NCBI GenBank assembly: GCA_028867145.1
Contig: JAGWGX010000007.1
Location: forward strand, 1 to 33,216
Direction: 5' to 3'
DNA: 33,216 nucleotides
Source: Microcaldota archaeon
GTDB taxonomy: Archaea; Micrarchaeota; Micrarchaeia; Micrarchaeales; CABMGC01
Shown here: positions 2,987-26,626 of the stretch, in pieces
Position numbering within the stretch: the stretch's first letter is position 1
How the letters are laid out: each line of letters starts with the position of its first letter
Program-made: the position numbers and the translations under genes
The notes under the pieces: generated by a model
Database searches by the model: none
Told to the model about the DNA's origin: nothing
Seen by the model: only the letters and a program-made list of their open reading frames with translations

Positions 2987-4219
2987 TCATTGCTCCTTTG
3001 CCTCCTCCTTTCCCTCTGCCTCGCTCTCTTTGTAGAGTCCCTTCTCTACCGTCATCTTTATCTTGTCCGGGGAGTACGCGAGCTTGATTAATTTTGTGTG
3101 GCCCCTAATTCCCTTGCCCGACTCGTATGTGTTGATCAGCCCTTGCATCTCAAGATCTGAGATGTACTTCCTGTACCACCTTGATGACTTTGGCTCCTTG
3201 GAAAGCGAGCCTGATATCGAGGCGTACTTGTCGTAGACCTCGCCGCTGAAAAGATAGGTCTCGCTGTCCTGGTTTAGCTTCTTGTACCTGCTTCCTTGAA
3301 GGGTGAGCATTGCAATTGCGTAGATGACAAGCTTCTGGTGCTCGGGAAGCGTGCTCACAAGCTCATATGCAATCTCCTCCTCCGCGCTCTTTGAGGCCTC
3401 CTCAATCTCCTTGGTTGAAATCTTTGTAAGCTTCTTCTCCTCCGCAACTTCCGCGGCCCTTGATAGTATCTTTAGCGCGAATCTTGCGTCACCGCTCTCC
3501 CTTGCCGAGATTGCCGCAGCAAGATTTAGGGCGGAGGGCTCAACCATGTTTGCCTTGAGGCCAACCGCTGATCGCTGCTGAAGTATTGCGAGCAGCTCAC
3601 TTGAGTTGTATGGCGGAAAGACAAGCTCTGTCTCGTAGAGCGTTGAGAGGCTCCTTGGATCAAGGTCCTCCTTGAATGATATTTTGTTTGAGACGCCAAG
3701 TATTGTTATTCCCCCGTTCTTTATGTCCGAGTTTGCCCTTGTCATAGTGTAGATCAAATCGTCTAGGTCCTTTACTATGTCAATCTCGTCAAGCACTACG
3801 ATCAGGACCTTGCCGTCCTCCTCTATCCACGACATCAGCCTCTCGTAGATATCAACTAGCCCGTATCCCCTCTTTGCATATGTGGGAAGGTGGTCGGAGA
3901 TTATCTTGCTTAGCACCCTGTACCTTGAGTTGTAGATCCTGCAGTTGATGTATGATATCTTTGCCTTGACTGTCGAGAGTTTTTTAACCTCATCAATCAC
4001 GTACTTGACGCAGGAGGTCTTTCCTGTACCGGTCTTGCCATAGACAAAAAGATTCCTCCCCCTCTCCCCCTTGAGCGATGGGGTTAATGCCTTCACAATC
4101 AGTGAGATCTGCTTGTCACGAAAGAGAAGGTGGTCGGGCATAAAGTGAGGCGAGAGTGCATCTCTGTTCACAAATACGGCCGACTCCTTTAGGAGATCGG
4201 CAAAAGGCTCTGCCATCAA
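2987..4219 (-). CDS. Orc1/Cdc6 family replication initiator
   Basis: Walker A GKTGTGKT, Walker B VLIVVLDEID, sensor ITILGVSNK, C-terminal winged-helix region (RWYRKYISDLEMQGLINTYESGKGIRGHTKLIKL). Confidence 0.95.
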   Translation of the reverse strand: MMAEPFADLLKESAVFVNRDALSPHFMPDHLLFRDKQISLIVKALTPSLKGERGRNLFVYGKTGTGKTSCVKYVIDEVKKLSTVKAKISYINCRIYNSRYRVLSKIISDHLPTYAKRGYGLVDIYERLMSWIEEDGKVLIVVLDEIDIVKDLDDLIYTMTRANSDIKNGGITILGVSNKISFKEDLDPRSLSTLYETELVFPPYNSSELLAILQQRSAVGLKANMVEPSALNLAAAISARESGDARFALKILSRAAEVAEEKKLTKISTKEIEEASKSAEEEIAYELVSTLPEHQKLVIYAIAMLTLQGSRYKKLNQDSETYLFSGEVYDKYASISGSLSKEPKSSRWYRKYISDLEMQGLINTYESGKGIRGHTKLIKLAYSPDKIKMTVEKGLYKESEAEGKEEAKEQ

Positions 4220-15783: not shown

Positions 15784-17418
15784 ATGAATAAGGAATGGAT
15801 TTTTTGGGCATTACTTGTGGTGGTGATCGTCTCAGTATCGCTGTACATCAGGCTGTATAGCACGCAGACGATCTCGATGTTTGTGAGCATAGCAAACCCA
15901 AGCTCTGCAAACGTGGTTTATCCATTCCAGAACATCGCACTGCCAATAACAGTCACAAACAACGGCCAGAGCGCGATAACAGGGCTCGTCTTTTCGGTAA
16001 TCTCGAACGGAAACAACTCTAAGGCATACCAGCTGACAATCCCTGTGGGAAAGAGCGTTAGCATAAACTACAACTTCACTCCGTCCTACTCTGGCAAGTA
16101 CAACGTGACGGTGATTGCGGATCCTGCAAAACTATACAGCGTTGCGAACAGGAACGGCGCCAAAAACCAGACGACCGTGACAGTAGCATCGCAGAGCGCT
16201 GCAGCGCCATACAAGCTGCTGCCTGCACGCAACACAACAGACTACGGAACGCTAAATTTGGCAAGGGGAGGATTTGTGGCATCGAGCTTCATCTACTCAT
16301 CGTATTCAATACCGACATTCGCGACGACCAGCACATATGACAAGTTCATCTACTCAGTTCTCAACTTAACCCAGACATACATCAGAAATGTCTCAACTGC
16401 TTATGCGACTTATGGAAATGGAGACTTTGCTTACTCGGTTTGGATCAGGGGATATGTGGTTCCTGGAATCTTTGGAATCGCAGGGGCTGCGCAGGGATAC
16501 GCGATAACTAATTATACAATTGGCGCAAATCGCGTGATGCTTGCAAAGATTTCAAACTCGACCACCCTTTGCAGCTGGTATGAGCAGGGATGGATAAAGA
16601 GTGTTGTCTATCGCAACGCCTCAAACTCGTGCCTTAGGATCTACAACAAGACAATAGCGACATTAAATGCCTCGATTAGCTCTGCAAATGCGACAGTTTA
16701 TGCAAAGCTTGCGTCTGCAACAAACAGCACAATAATCGGAAACTACAGCGGTTCTGGCAAGGGAGTAAGCAGCTACTCGGCGCTCTCTCTGGTCGGGCCT
16801 AAGTTCTCACTTACAAGGGTCTCGGTAAACAGCACACAGGCAAGCAAGTGCTACGGGATCGTGAGCACGGTGAATGGAACAACGTACTGCAGCGTCTATT
16901 TGCTTCCTGCAACAGGAACGGTAAGCGGATTTGCGCTGATAAAGACGATGGGATACATAGGAAAGTACAATGTCAGCGTCTTCTCATTGGTGAACAGCTC
17001 GAATGTTTTCCAGACAATCCCTCCCGACATTGCAACAATCAGGGGACTTGGGCTAAACGGAACAGCAAAAACATTTGCAAGCGGATTTGGAAATAGCTGC
17101 TCTTTCAATAGCACCATTTCGTGCAAGAACCCGAGCTTCCTAAACAGCACGCTTACGCTAAACCTCACAAACACCCTGAACTCGAGCATAAAGCTCAACT
17201 CGATTTCGTGCAGGGCTATAGGTGCCGGACTTAAGATAGCTCTAAACAAGACGCTTGTCGGAAAGGCCTCAACTAGCGTGAAGTCAACTTGCTACAATGC
17301 AGGAAATGTGATAAAGGGAGTTCCGCTCAACTTGCAGCTATACCTTCAGCTAAACTACACGGCGGTGAATATGACAAGGCTGATTGCAGGAAACGCGACT
17401 GTGAATATCATTTCCTAG
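15784..17418 (+). CDS. Large extracytoplasmic, N-sequon-rich surface protein with N-terminal TM anchor and CARDB-like beta domain
   Basis: [18 protein letters not shown]-terminal hydrophobic segment, then [40 protein letters not shown]...[12 protein letters not shown]; dozens of NxS/T sequons and several Cys pairs. Confidence 0.8.
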
Positions 17419-19871
17419 ATTTGAGGAGAAGAATCAACTGGTGCTGCGGAGACTGGAGACGGGGCATCAATGTCTGAGCCGTCTAGCACCCTTGCGTCAA
17501 CGACTTTTGCGGAAGACTCGACCTTCATGAGCCTGACTCCTGATGCGCTCCTGCCGGTTATCCTTATCTCGTCGACCTCGAATTTTATCGTGACCCCCTT
17601 TGAGTTTATTATCAGGACCTTTGACTTGCCGTGCACAAAGACGGATTTTGCAACATCTCCGGTCTTTGGAGAGACCTTGAGGTTGATTATCCCGCTTCCG
17701 CTCCTGTTCTGGTCGCGGTACTTGCTGATCTCGGTGAGCTTTCCGTATCCGTGCTCTGTTACGGTGAGCAAATAGCCCGTCTCCTCCACGGGAATGATGT
17801 TCTTTGCAACATCATCGCTGCCGAGCCTTATTCCGCGCACGCCCATCGCGCTTCTCCCAAGAGCCCTGACATCCGCATCGTCAAACTTTATCGACTTTCC
17901 CTTCTTCGTGGCGATCATGATGTACTTCTCCTGCGCGTAGATTTGCGCATCTGCGATTGTGTCCCCCTGGTTTAGGGTTATTGCCCTAACTCCCGTGACC
18001 CTTGGATGCGCAAAGAGCTTTGCGGAAATCTTCTTGATCAGTCCCCTTGTGGTGAGGAACATTATCCTCGACTCCTCAAAGTTCTTTATGCTCATTATCG
18101 TAACGATCTTCTCGTCCTTGAGGTTTAGCAGGTTAACAATTGCCTTTCCTTCGGCGTACCTGCTCGACTCGGGAACCCTGTACGCCTTGAGCCAGTATGC
18201 CCTTCCCTTGTCAGAGATGCAAATTAGGTAGTCCTTTGCCTTGCAGGTGATTATCTGCTTTACAAAGTCGCCCTCCTTTAGGTTGATTGCGATAACTCCC
18301 CTTCCTCCGCGCGCCTGTTCCTTGTAGGTGGTCAGGTTCATTCTCTTCACGTAGCCAACGCTTGTGAAGATCACGGTAATCCTGTCGTCCGCAATTAGGT
18401 CCTCCTCTGTCCTATCGGAGGAGCCGTCGTCTTGGAGAAGCTGCGTCTTCCTTGGCCTGCCATACTCCTTTTTCACCTCGAGGGTCTCACTCTTGATTAT
18501 TGCATCCACCTTCTTTGGATCGGCAAGGATGCCTGAGTAGTGAGAGATCTTCCCTTCTAGCTCTGCTTTCTCATCGGTGAGAGAGGTGAACTCGAGGTTT
18601 GTGAGCTTTGAGAGCTTCATGTCAAGTATCGCATTAGCCTGCTTTTCTGAGAGCTCATAGTGCTTCATCAAAAGCGCGCGGGCTGAGGCGAGCTCCCTGC
18701 TCTCCTTGATCTGCTTCACCATCTGGTCGATGTTTGTGATTGCGACAAGCAGTCCCTCCACGATGTGGATGCGGTCCTTTGCCACATTTAGCTCAAAGGT
18801 GCTCCTCCTTGTGATTATCTCCCTCCTGTGGTTGATGAAGGCGAGGAGAAGCTCTAGGATGTTGAAGTTCTTTAGCTTCTTTCCAAGGATTGCAAGGTTG
18901 ATTATTGGGAAGGTGGTCTCAAGCTGCGTGTGCTTGTATAGAGAGTTGAGGATAACCTCGGGCTGTACATCGCCCCTAAGCTCAATTACGACCCTGATCT
19001 CGGTGTCGCTCTCATCCCTAATGTCTGTGATGCCCACAATTCGCTTTTCCTTGACGAGCTCTGCGATGTTTTGGATGAGAGCGGATTTGTTTACGCTGTA
19101 TGGAAGCTCGTGTAGGATTATCTGGTTCTCCTTTGTGTCAATCTCCGCCTTTGCCTTGATTGTGACCTGCCCCCTTCCGTACTTGTACCCATTGTAGGTG
19201 TTCTCTGAGATTAGTGCGATTCCGCCGGTTGGGAAGTCCGGCCCTTTGATTATGTTAAGTATGTCGGTAGGCGTCGTGCCCTCATTTTCAAGAACGTGCG
19301 AGATTGCATCGCACACCTCGATAAGGTTGTGTGGAGGCATGCTAGTTGAGACTCCAACTGCAATTCCGTAGGTTCCGTTCACCAAAAGATTTGGTATTTT
19401 TGCGGGGAGCACATCTGGCTCCTGCTCAGTGTTATCGTAATTTGGAATCATGTCAACGGTCTTCCTTTCAAGGTCGTCAATCATTCCCTCCGCAAGCTTG
19501 GTGAGTCGAACCTCAGTGTACCTCATTGCGGCTGGAGGGTCTCCGTCAACGGAACCGAAGTTTCCCTGTCCCTCCACAAATGTGTGGTTCATGGAGAAGT
19601 CCTGCGCCATTCGCACGAGCGATTCGTAAACCGCAGAGTCTCCGTGCGGGTGGTACTTACCGATTACGTCTCCCACAACCCTTGCCGACTTCTTTGTGGG
19701 CTGGTTGTGCACGTTGTTGATGTTGTACATGGCGTAGAGAATCCGTCTGTTGACCGGCTTGAGCCCGTCCCTTACGTCGGGGATTGCTCTGCCGATGATC
19801 ACGCTCATCGCGTAGTCAATGTAGCTAGATTGGAGTTCGTCCTCCAGCAGTACATTCTTTATGTTTTGCAT
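17415..19871 (-). CDS. gyrA: DNA gyrase subunit A
   Basis: [33 protein letters not shown], catalytic Tyr in [12 protein letters not shown], GyrA-box-like QARGGRG. Confidence 0.97.
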
Positions 19872-19880
19872 GATTTTCCC

Positions 19881-21803
19881 TCATACGTCCAGGAACTTTA
19901 CCTCCGCTGAGTGCTCCTCAAGGAACTTTCTTCTCCTTGCGACGTCCACTCCCATGAGTATTGTGAAGAGCTCGTCAGCCTTTGCTCCGTCAAGTATGTT
20001 GATCTTCTTCAGCACCCTGTTGTCTGGGTTCATCGTGGTCTCCCAGAGCTGCTCCGGGTTCATCTCTCCAAGACCCTTGTATCTTTGCACGCCCGCCTTT
20101 CCGTCATAGTTCTTCATCTTTGCCTCAAGCTCCTCGTCGCTGTAGCAGTAAGAGGACTCTCTACCCTTTGTGAGCTTGTAGAGCGGCGGCTGTGCGATGT
20201 AAACATAGCCCTTCTCGATTAGCGGCTTTAGGTAACGATAGAGGAATGTGAGTATGAGGGTCCTGATGTGGCTTCCATCGACGTCCGCATCGCTCATCAG
20301 GACTATTTTCTTGTACCTTATCTTATCTGGATTGAATGTCTCCTTTATCCCTGTCCCAAATGCAGCGACCATTGCGTGAATCTCCGCATTGTCAAATATC
20401 TTGTCAACGCTTGCCTTCTCTACGTTGAGGATCTTTCCCTTTAGCGGCAAGATTGCCTGGAACTTCTTATCACGGCCCTGCTTGCTAGAGCCCCCTGCGC
20501 TCTCTCCCTCAACTATGAAGATCTCCGCCTTTTCCGGATCCGATTCTTGGCAATCCGCAAGCTTTCCGGGAAGCACAGAGCTCTCAAAGATGCTCCTCTT
20601 TCGAACCATCTCTCTTGCCTTTCTTGAAGCTTCTCGGGCTATCGCCGCATTGATTACTTTTTCTACAATTATCCTTGCCTCTGCAGGATGTTCCTCAAGA
20701 TATCTTGAGATCTGCGCATAGACAACGTTCTCCACTAGGCTCTTGACCTGAGTGTTGCCGAGTTTTTCCTTTGTCTGACCCTCGAATTCGGGGTTTGGCA
20801 TGAGCACGTTTATGATTCCGGTAAGCCCTTCTCGCACATCGTCTCCGCCAACCTTTATTTCCTTGTTTGCGGCGCTTGCGTTCTTTGCGATATAATTAGT
20901 AATGACCCTTGAGAAGGCGGACCTAAATCCGATCACGTGGGTTCCTCCCTCTGAGGTTCTTATGTTATTGACAAATGACTCGATTTTCTCGTCGTACTCC
21001 TTGTTGTACTGAAGCGCAATCTCAACTGTTGTCCCCTCTGCCTCCTTCTTGAAATGAATAGGCGCGGTGATAACCTCGATTCCCTTGTTTAGGTGCTCGA
21101 CAAAATCGACAAGCCCTCTTTGCGAATAGAACTCTGTTGTCTCCTCAGGGGCTGTCCTTGCATCAACCAGGATTATCCTAAGGCCCTGGTTTAGGAAGGT
21201 TGTGTACCTGAGCCTGTCCTTTAACACATCGACATTGAAGTGCGGAGCGTTGAAGATTTCAGGATCTGGCTTGAATCTAATCGTGGTTCCCTTGTCTTGC
21301 GTCTCGCCAACTTGGGTTAGCTCTGATGTCGGGTAACCTTTGCTGAAATCCATTCGGAACTTCTTCCCGTTTTTGTTGACAATCACCTGCGTGAACTCAG
21401 AAAGCGAGTTGATGACCGTGAGTCCCACTCCGTGCAGCCCTCCTGCGGTCTTGTAAACATCATTATTGAATTTTCCGCCCGAGTGAAGCGAGGTCATTAT
21501 GACCTCAAGCGCAGGCTTGTTGTACTTTGGCATTATGTCGATAGGAATTCCCCTTCCGTTGTCGGAGAGCTCTGCAATCTCTCCTGTGCCATCAGTGCTA
21601 AGCGTGATCCTTATTGTGTCGCAGTGCCCTGCCATCGCCTCGTCCACTGCGTTGTCAAGCGCTTCGTAGAGCAAATGGACGACTCCCCCAGGGCCTGTTG
21701 AGCCGATGTACATCGCAGGCCTTTTCCTAATTCCCTGGACTCCTTCAAGTACCACGATCTTTGATGCGTTATACTCGTCCTGCGTCTCTACCATAGCAAT
21801 CAA
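19881..21803 (-). CDS. gyrB: DNA gyrase subunit B
   Basis: LEGVQGIRKRPAMYIGSTGPGGVVHLLYEALDNAVDEA, EGESAGGSSKQGRDKKFQAILPLKGKILNVEKA, MSDADVDGSHIRTL, RRKFLEEHSAEVKFLDV. Confidence 0.97.
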   Translation of the reverse strand: MIAMVETQDEYNASKIVVLEGVQGIRKRPAMYIGSTGPGGVVHLLYEALDNAVDEAMAGHCDTIRITLSTDGTGEIAELSDNGRGIPIDIMPKYNKPALEVIMTSLHSGGKFNNDVYKTAGGLHGVGLTVINSLSEFTQVIVNKNGKKFRMDFSKGYPTSELTQVGETQDKGTTIRFKPDPEIFNAPHFNVDVLKDRLRYTTFLNQGLRIILVDARTAPEETTEFYSQRGLVDFVEHLNKGIEVITAPIHFKKEAEGTTVEIALQYNKEYDEKIESFVNNIRTSEGGTHVIGFRSAFSRVITNYIAKNASAANKEIKVGGDDVREGLTGIINVLMPNPEFEGQTKEKLGNTQVKSLVENVVYAQISRYLEEHPAEARIIVEKVINAAIAREASRKAREMVRKRSIFESSVLPGKLADCQESDPEKAEIFIVEGESAGGSSKQGRDKKFQAILPLKGKILNVEKASVDKIFDNAEIHAMVAAFGTGIKETFNPDKIRYKKIVLMSDADVDGSHIRTLILTFLYRYLKPLIEKGYVYIAQPPLYKLTKGRESSYCYSDEELEAKMKNYDGKAGVQRYKGLGEMNPEQLWETTMNPDNRVLKKINILDGAKADELFTILMGVDVARRRKFLEEHSAEVKFLDV

Positions 21804-24768: not shown

Positions 24769-24795
24769 GCTGTGGATACATATTATAGAAAAGAT

Positions 24796-24870
24796 AGCGA
24801 GGTAGGGTAGCCTGGAGTGCCCGCCGGGCTCATAACCCGGAGATCGATGGTCCAAATCCATCCCTCGCTA
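24796..24870 (+). tRNA. tRNA-Met (anticodon CAT), initiator-like
   Basis: AGCGAGG/CCTCGCT acceptor with A1-U72 pair, GGGT/GCCC D stem, CCGGG-CTCATAA-CCCGG anticodon arm with G-C run next to the loop, GATGG-TCCAAAT-CCATC T arm. Confidence 0.93.
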
Positions 24871-24904
24871 TAAAAATAAACGCCTAGCTAAGCGACGGCA
24901 AACT

Positions 24905-25045
24905 AACCACCCACCACCCCACACTTCCACTAATCGCGTTCCTTATATATAATTAACAAATAATAAATCATCAAATAAACCATACTCTTGGTTTTGTTTT
25001 TTGAATTATTAGTGGAAACACAGGGCTGTGGTTTTGTTTTTGGGA
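24905..25045. other. Candidate replication origin: inverted ORB-like elements around an AT-rich unwinding-type tract
   Basis: Left element (minus strand) ATTAGTGGAAGTGTGGGGTGGTGGGTGGT; right element (plus strand) ATTAGTGGAAACACAGGGCTGTGG. The 73 bp between them (24935-25007) have 17 G+C, about 77% A+T. Confidence 0.6.
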
Positions 25046-25080: not shown

Positions 25081-25545
25081 ATGGAAATAACAGTTGAGCA
25101 GCTCTACAACATGTCGTTGTCTGAAAGAAAGACTGGCGAGGTGCTTCCATTGCCAAAGGAGTTCTACAAAACCGCAGAATCAAAGCTAAAGTCGCTCGAA
25201 TCTGAGTCGGATCCGCAGCATGCAAACAACTTCAGAAAGCTGCTCGCATCGGTCAAGGAGAGGCGAATACAAAAACTATTAATATACTTAGCCTACAATA
25301 AACTATTGCCAAGTCAGGTGCCAGAAGAGGAGGAGGAGCTCTACGGAAAGGTGAAGCTTCTGCTTAACAGCAAAGAGCCTCCCTCGCAAAAGCTAAGGCA
25401 TGTGCGCGTAACAACCGAGATGCCCCAGCTGATGATGCCAAACGGAAGCAAGTCCGGGCCATACAAGCAAAACCAGCTGCTTGACCTCTCCGACAACTAT
25501 GAGGCGGAGTTCCTGCTAAACAACAAGCTCGCAGAGCAAGTTTGA
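25081..25545 (+). CDS. Archaeal GINS complex subunit (Gins51/Gins15-like)
   Basis: MEITVEQLYNMSLSERKTGEVLPLPKEFYKTAESKLKSLESE...ERRIQKLLIYLAYN; immediately upstream of L44e, as commonly seen for archaeal GINS. Confidence 0.7.
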   Translation: MEITVEQLYNMSLSERKTGEVLPLPKEFYKTAESKLKSLESESDPQHANNFRKLLASVKERRIQKLLIYLAYNKLLPSQVPEEEEELYGKVKLLLNSKEPPSQKLRHVRVTTEMPQLMMPNGSKSGPYKQNQLLDLSDNYEAEFLLNNKLAEQV

Positions 25546-25556
25546 AAAGTGATATT

Positions 25557-25850
25557 ATGAAAATAGCAAAAGAGATTTCAACGTACTGCCCTTACTGCAA
25601 CAAGCACACGGTGCACATCGTAAAGTCTGTGATAGGGCCAAAGCCGGCGAACCCGAGCAGGGGAATGAGCGTGAGCAACCGAAGGCACAACAGGAAGATC
25701 AAGGGTTATGTCGGTAAGGTCAAGGCTAAGACTCCGGTGAAGAAGCTTGCGAAGAAGCAGAAGGCTCTTCTTGAGTGCAAAGAGTGCCACAAGTCGATAC
25801 AGCGAGTCTTTGGGAACAGGACAAAGAAGAAGCTTGAGATCAAGCGTTGA
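25557..25850 (+). CDS. rpl44e: 50S ribosomal protein L44e
   Basis: MKIAKEISTYCPYCNKHTVHIVKSV...RGMSVSNRRHNRKIKGYVGKVKAKTPVKKLAKKQKALLECKECHKSIQRVFGNRTKKKLEI; ATG at 25557 preferred over TTG at 25542. Confidence 0.93.
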   Translation: MKIAKEISTYCPYCNKHTVHIVKSVIGPKPANPSRGMSVSNRRHNRKIKGYVGKVKAKTPVKKLAKKQKALLECKECHKSIQRVFGNRTKKKLEIKR

Positions 25851-25855
25851 ACTCC

Positions 25856-26626
25856 ATGATAATACACAAGGCAATGCCAGAAGTTGGCGAACTTGTCCTC
25901 GTCAGGGTAAAGAAGGTGATGCCCTTTGGGGCATACTGCGAGCTTACCGAGTACAACAACCACGATTCCTATCTCCCAATCAAGGAGGTCGCCTCAGGTT
26001 GGATAAAAAACATCCACGAGTTCATAAAAGAGGGGCAGCGAGACGTCGGAAAGGTCGTCTACATCGACAAGGAGAAGAACTCGATTGATATCTCTCTCAA
26101 GAAGGTCACAAAGAAGGAGGGCAAGGACAAGGTTAATGATGTCAACCTTGAAAAGCGCGCGGAGAATCTTTTCACTCAGGCTCTTGCTGAGGCGGGAATG
26201 AAGGACAAACTTCCTGAATTAATTCCAGAGCTCATAAAGAAGTACCAATCCTACAACGACATAATCAATTTGCTAGTTGACGGCAAGGACCCATTTGAGG
26301 GCCTCAAGATCAATGCGAAGTTTGCGACAGCAATGAAGGAGATTGTCGCAAAGAACATCAAGCCAAAGGTTTACACCGTCTCCTACATCGCGCAGGTCTC
26401 GGTCTACGACACAAAGGCAGGAATCTCGCTCATCAAGAAGGCCTTCACCGCGATAGAAAAGCTGGGAGTCACAGTTCTCTATCTTGGCGCGCCAAGGTAC
26501 AGGATGGTCTCAGAGGACATGAGCTACCCGAAGGCGGAGGAGAGAATCAAACACGCAAATGAGATACTTGAAAAGGAGCTCAAGAACAGCTCAATTGAGA
26601 TAATAAAGGAGAAGATAAATGCGTAG
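25856..26626 (+). CDS. eif2a: Translation initiation factor aIF2 subunit alpha
   Basis: S1 domain PEVGELVLVRVKKVMPFGAYCELTEYNNHDSYLPIKEVASGWIKNIHEFIKEGQRDVGKVVYIDKEKNSIDISLKKVT, and the C-terminal aIF2-alpha domain. Confidence 0.95.
   Translation: MIIHKAMPEVGELVLVRVKKVMPFGAYCELTEYNNHDSYLPIKEVASGWIKNIHEFIKEGQRDVGKVVYIDKEKNSIDISLKKVTKKEGKDKVNDVNLEKRAENLFTQALAEAGMKDKLPELIPELIKKYQSYNDIINLLVDGKDPFEGLKINAKFATAMKEIVAKNIKPKVYTVSYIAQVSVYDTKAGISLIKKAFTAIEKLGVTVLYLGAPRYRMVSEDMSYPKAEERIKHANEILEKELKNSSIEIIKEKINA

Follow-up and report, generated by a model that had tools for sequence, protein, structure and literature searches.

The window, the whole stretch of 33,216 nucleotides of archaeal DNA analyzed here, contains a pair of short inverted boxes flanking an AT-rich tract (positions 24917-25025) which, with a probability of about 0.88, forms the core of oriC, the site at which replication of the chromosome of this micrarchaeon starts. 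The window belongs to Micrarchaeota: nearly all named relatives identified through the GINS protein are metagenome genomes of 'Candidatus Micrarchaeota', and the closest is 68% identical in GINS. The replication origin proposed in the original prediction is supported by a switch in strand composition at the pair, by the order-wide conservation of the pair and by the lack of a better ORB cluster. The evidence supports the pair as a chromosomal origin of the ORB type, in a form specific to the lineage, at which binding of the initiator and firing would be expected.

The left ORB-like box (24917-24934, minus strand; ATTAGTGGAAGTGTGGGG) is close to the order consensus CGAATAGTGGAAnTGTGGGGT and has a PWM score of 27.6; the right box (25008-25025, plus strand; ATTAGTGGAAACACAGGG) is more diverged, with a score of 17.6. 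The two boxes share a perfect 10-bp inverted repeat, TTCCACTAAT / ATTAGTGGAA, with 73 bp between them. The predicted sequences, coordinates and orientation of both copies were confirmed exactly, and recounting of the spacer (24935-25007) again gave 17 G+C among its 73 bp. This spacer, a putative unwinding element, carries TATATAAT and ATAAATCATC, both of which are kept within the genus, and contains the 70 bp of lowest stability in the 33-kb window. The pair displays the organization of an ORB-type origin, that is, inverted ORB repeats around an AT-rich unwinding region. With a PWM built from 60 loci, the pair in the window scores 45.2, compared to the best scores of 8.7 among 2400 dinucleotide-shuffled regions and 12.1 among 30 shuffled 33-kb windows. 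A scan of the draft genome (681 kb, 40 contigs, 83% complete) for the motif pattern singled out in the original prediction, TTAGTGGAANNNNNGGG, detected only two exact sites, both of which belong to the pair.

The genes around the pair form a recognizable context. Its usual left neighbour is a tRNA-Met (CAT) gene (24795-24871, plus strand) with initiator features that can be read from the sequence, namely A1-U72 and the GGG:CCC anticodon stem. To the right lie the genes for a GINS15-type GINS subunit (25081-25545), ribosomal protein L44e (25542-25850; PF00935) and aIF2-alpha (25847-26626; PF07541), all on the plus strand, the latter a member of the ancient GINS15-L44E-aIF2alpha cluster (PMC2643942). 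The 68%-identical orthologue (L004) of the GINS protein of the window passes the Pfam Sld5/GINS model PF05916, and the predicted location of the pair in a gap between an initiator-type tRNA-Met and a GINS gene holds. The pair is not a feature of the tRNA because it is present without an adjoining tRNA-Met in three loci (L014, L017 and L029). Some of the pair-adjoining initiator tRNA-Met genes appear to contain intron-like insertions, in the anticodon-loop region (L004, identical to L033, and L024) or in the T-arm region (L024 and L068). The PPsG-LSIN gene cluster has been described as a combination of PCNA/PriS/GINS15 with L44E, S27E, aIF2alpha and Nop10 (PMC2643942), and the single run of GINS15, L44e and aIF2alpha genes directly downstream of the pair resembles this cluster. 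No report of a chromosomal origin at the PPsG-LSIN or GINS15-L44E-aIF2alpha cluster was found in the open-licence literature searched. Elsewhere in the window, genes for a bacterial-type DNA gyrase are located 3-7 kb from the proposed origin (gyrB, identified with Pfam, at 19881-21803, and a gyrA-like ORF at 17415-19871), and the replication and repair neighbourhood also includes genes for an SSB-like OB-fold protein (5489), an Mre11-like phosphoesterase (11497) and RadA (30402).

The order consensus of the box is (CG)AATAGTGGAAnTGTGGGGT (from the logos, CGAATAGTGGAA); for archaeal ORBs, the published consensus (Pelve et al., cited in PMC4153887) reads CTTCCAGTGGAAACGAAAGGGGT. Set against this consensus, the logos of the micrarchaeal box show the canonical AGTGGAA core with a G-string 3' of it, whereas the 5' TTCC half of the dyad is missing. 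The resemblance to ORB suggested originally accordingly stands for the core and the G-string but not for the 5' half, and a search of the window for CTTCCAGTGGAAACGAAAGGGGT with up to 3 mismatches produced no match. Compared to the canonical ORB, AGTGGAA is retained throughout and the G-string in most micrarchaeal boxes, the TTCC half is replaced by (CG)AAT, and the spacing to the G-string is shorter. Two forms of the 3' part of the box occur among the loci L033-L095, GGGG in most boxes and ACCC in many right and some left ones (for example, L037, L043 and L044), AGTGGAA being kept despite the ACCC. By sequence, the micrarchaeal box presumably resembles, as a shortened ORB, the mini-ORB of Sulfolobus oriC2. 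The mini-ORBs, which are used at oriC2 (PMC4010727), differ from the micrarchaeal boxes in that the latter mostly keep the G-string and form one inverted pair. Similarity is also seen with the ORB-type oriC of Pyrococcus, Sulfolobus (oriC1), haloarchaea (oriC1) and Methanomassiliicoccales, in which inverted ORBs with the AGTGGAA core and a 3' G-string surround an AT-rich tract, a Cdc6-1-type initiator is encoded in the genome and the site coincides with an extreme of composition disparity. Unlike these origins, the micrarchaeal pair consists of two boxes only, is not adjacent to cdc6 (the distance is 21 kb in the window and 111 kb in G263, a genome of another family) and adjoins the GINS15-L44e-aIF2alpha genes and the initiator tRNA.

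The pair is kept in essentially all relatives within the order, as established by a check of the predicted conservation. The motif model was built from GINS-upstream regions of 59 named loci and the window, and an inverted pair upstream of GINS is present in all 60 loci, with the boxes 72-91 bp apart and a spacer AT content of 62-88%. The lowest pair score among the 60 loci is 30.0, compared to the shuffled-region maximum of 8.7; the PWM was trained on the same loci that were scored, but the gap is too large to be explained by this alone. In the second family of the order, the left box was detected in 30 of the 30 scored loci, and the right box scored above 9.8 in 27 of the 30, this set overlapping in part with the training set. 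A degenerate pair pattern matches in 131 of 303 genomes of the phylum; by this tally, it is found in 113 of the 165 genomes within the order, approximately once in each, and in 18 of the 138 outside, compared to 11 and 10 genomes, respectively, for a reversed control pattern. Just one pair in which the two boxes each exceed 8 bits is present in each of three large assemblies, namely contig C11 of G010, G015 and the 800 kb of G263 that were analyzed. A second pair in a same-genus genome (G007:C56:101-196) has boxes and flanks like those of other genera and was set aside as probably belonging to a contaminating contig. In genus g16 (G029-G033), five of six genomes contain neither a GINS match nor the pair, which may reflect either an assembly gap or a real relocation; cdc6 was found in all five, in G029 only as a contig-end fragment.

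An Orc1/Cdc6 initiator is encoded in the genome, and the sole copy found, at 2987-4219 on the minus strand as originally noted, presumably acts in trans on the pair. Its closest solved relative is Sulfolobus Cdc6-1 (2qby_A, E 5.7e-66). The origin reading is backed by this affinity to the Cdc6-1 type together with the agreement of the AGTGGAA core and the G-string with the published ORB. The expected separation of about 20 kb was measured as 21 kb; the replication gene that adjoins the pair is GINS, and orc1/cdc6, the usual neighbour of ORB origins, is not adjacent. Nearly all genomes of the family have one orc1/cdc6 gene, with 63-89% identity to that in the window among full-length matches, often located 15-50 kb from GINS on a shared contig; the distance from the pair is 37 kb in G010, and cdc6 of G263 is at 178.4 kb. 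No inverted pair was detected in the 3-4 kb around cdc6, either in the order (L302-L305) or in other families (L306-L331), and no better ORB cluster was found near cdc6 or elsewhere in the three large assemblies. A second orc1/cdc6 paralogue, about 30% identical, is generally present in families of other orders. It is absent from this order, four second-family genomes having been checked, except for a weak remnant in G258; this weak match (G258:C1:839441-840268) contains a stop codon, and the paralogue otherwise seems to have been lost from the order.

Because composition differs between archaeal genes of opposite strands, skew was calculated from fourfold-degenerate third positions and the gene-strand effect was removed. 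The disparity curves reach an extreme at the pair, as would be required of the predicted origin, in the window, G010 and G263, and approximately so in G015, where the signal is weaker. In G010 (727-kb contig), the corrected MK minimum (386,936), AT minimum (385,818) and GC maximum (382,305) surround or approach the pair at 386,696-386,803 (about 386,750), the MK minimum being 186 bp away; the uncorrected MK curve forms one sharp V with the minimum at 386,574. In G263 (990 kb, of which the first 800 kb were analyzed), the MK minimum (68,175) is 1.1 kb from the pair at 67,054-67,190 (about 67,120), the GC maximum is at 66,739, and the uncorrected MK maximum at 545 kb is near the antipode of the pair (562 kb). 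In G015 (771 kb), the corrected maxima at 226-230 kb are 23-27 kb off the pair at 253 kb, and the minima at 627-650 kb are near the antipode (639 kb), which is compatible with an origin at the pair, albeit imprecisely; the uncorrected GC skew of this genome is too noisy, and the corrected version is better. The MK polarity in G015 differs from that in G010 and G263. A two-break model with gene permutation gave a strong signal in all three measures for G010 (MK SS 338, compared to the permuted maximum of 38), a clear one in G263 for GC only (SS 21 versus the permuted maximum of 10; break position, 82 kb), MK showing no clear signal, and a clear one in G015 for AT only, with the MK break not at the pair. 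In the window itself, the fourfold GC skew is positive to the left of the pair and negative to the right for genes on both strands, the cumulative extremes are at 25,796 for the GC maximum (0.8 kb from the pair) and 25,847 for MK, and the right-left difference is significant by gene permutation (GC, p < 1e-4; MK, p = 0.008). The composition switch tracks the pair, not cdc6.

The polarity of this switch bears on whether the pair might be a replication terminus or a segregation or resolution site, the composition switch then being a terminus switch. The GC and MK skew polarity is reversed compared to typical bacteria: at degenerate sites, GC skew peaks at the pair (in the window and in G010:C11), as it does at bacterial termini. 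However, a GC maximum at third codon positions has been reported at the experimentally mapped origin of Haloferax volcanii (PMC12999951), and the motif matches the ORB core. Furthermore, as a separate line of evidence, the direction of highly expressed genes, namely those for ribosomal protein L2, 23S rRNA and rpoB, located in nine genomes and hand-scored relative to the pair (or to the GINS gene as its stand-in in G190, G246, G258, G222 and G254), is away from the pair in 8 of 9, 4 of 6 and 6 of 6 cases, respectively, or 18 of 21 in total (p = 0.0015), the count leaving out rpoB of G246, which is at the antipode, and genes on a contig other than that of the pair. L2 is within 26 kb of the pair in 8 of the 9 genomes. 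Outward transcription of these genes fits an origin, and a terminus at this position appears extremely unlikely; the direction of tRNA genes was uninformative as a polarity test.

The constant association with GINS brings up another possibility, that the pair merely regulates the GINS-L44e-aIF2alpha operon, as an operator to which Orc1/Cdc6 or some other protein binds, with the origin elsewhere. The right box is mostly located 28-76 bp upstream of the GINS start, and the pair remains with GINS throughout the order, as would be expected of an operator, but conservation is higher in the left box, which is more distant from GINS, and the genome-scale composition switch sits at the pair. An inverted pair with an AT-rich spacer was also found at a different locus in family f15, near a gene for a PhageMetallopep-domain protein (Pfam PF18894), in G170 (L215:1501-1606, contig C21), G166 (L214:1501-1604, contig C2) and G171 (L333). 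In G170, the GINS gene lies on a different contig, and in G166 its distance from the pair is about 144 kb. The occurrence of the f15 pair away from GINS argues against a mere GINS operator, and we consider this explanation very unlikely. The f15 site is probably the origin of that family; no pair at the metallopeptidase locus was found in the families other than f15 that were searched. A GTAACCATGGTTAC-type palindrome is present near the PhageMetallopep gene in G170, G171, G166 and G168 (L334).

The remaining alternative, which overlaps with the preferred explanation and does not compete with it, is that the pair is one of several origins, with comparable contributions from other Orc1 sites or from RadA recombination-dependent initiation. 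Multiple origins and origin-independent replication are found in other archaea (PMC4010727; PMC11005403), and G015 combines a strong single ORB at 157 kb with a weak skew; against this, nearly all of the order genomes examined have one orc1/cdc6, there is approximately one inverted pair per genome, and the MK curve of G010 is one sharp V. Several origins of comparable weight seem unlikely.

If the pair is oriC and works as ORB origins do (PMC4010727), the Orc1/Cdc6 protein, whose gene lies 21 kb away, would attach to both inverted boxes and melt, or help to melt, the 73-bp AT-rich spacer; MCM would be loaded at the opened spacer, and two forks would then depart in opposite directions. The weak skew in G015, the restriction of the clear permutation signal in G263 to GC, the reversed GC polarity, the missing TTCC half and the non-adjacent cdc6 are counted against this reading. 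No described origin for any Micrarchaeota was found in the open-licence literature searched, this absence being weak evidence of novelty. It seems more likely than not that the whole order uses one minimal two-box origin, a diverged ORB that is fixed by GINS15-L44e-aIF2alpha and uncoupled from the single orc1/cdc6, and that an origin of this kind is found at another locus in a related family, the origin having moved while the pairing of box and initiator was kept. A 110-bp origin with a stated consensus would provide an anchor for read-depth estimates of growth in these uncultured archaea, and the pair would give Orc1 biochemistry a small substrate with only two boxes and represent a clear order-wide exception to the rule that the replicator lies beside its initiator gene.
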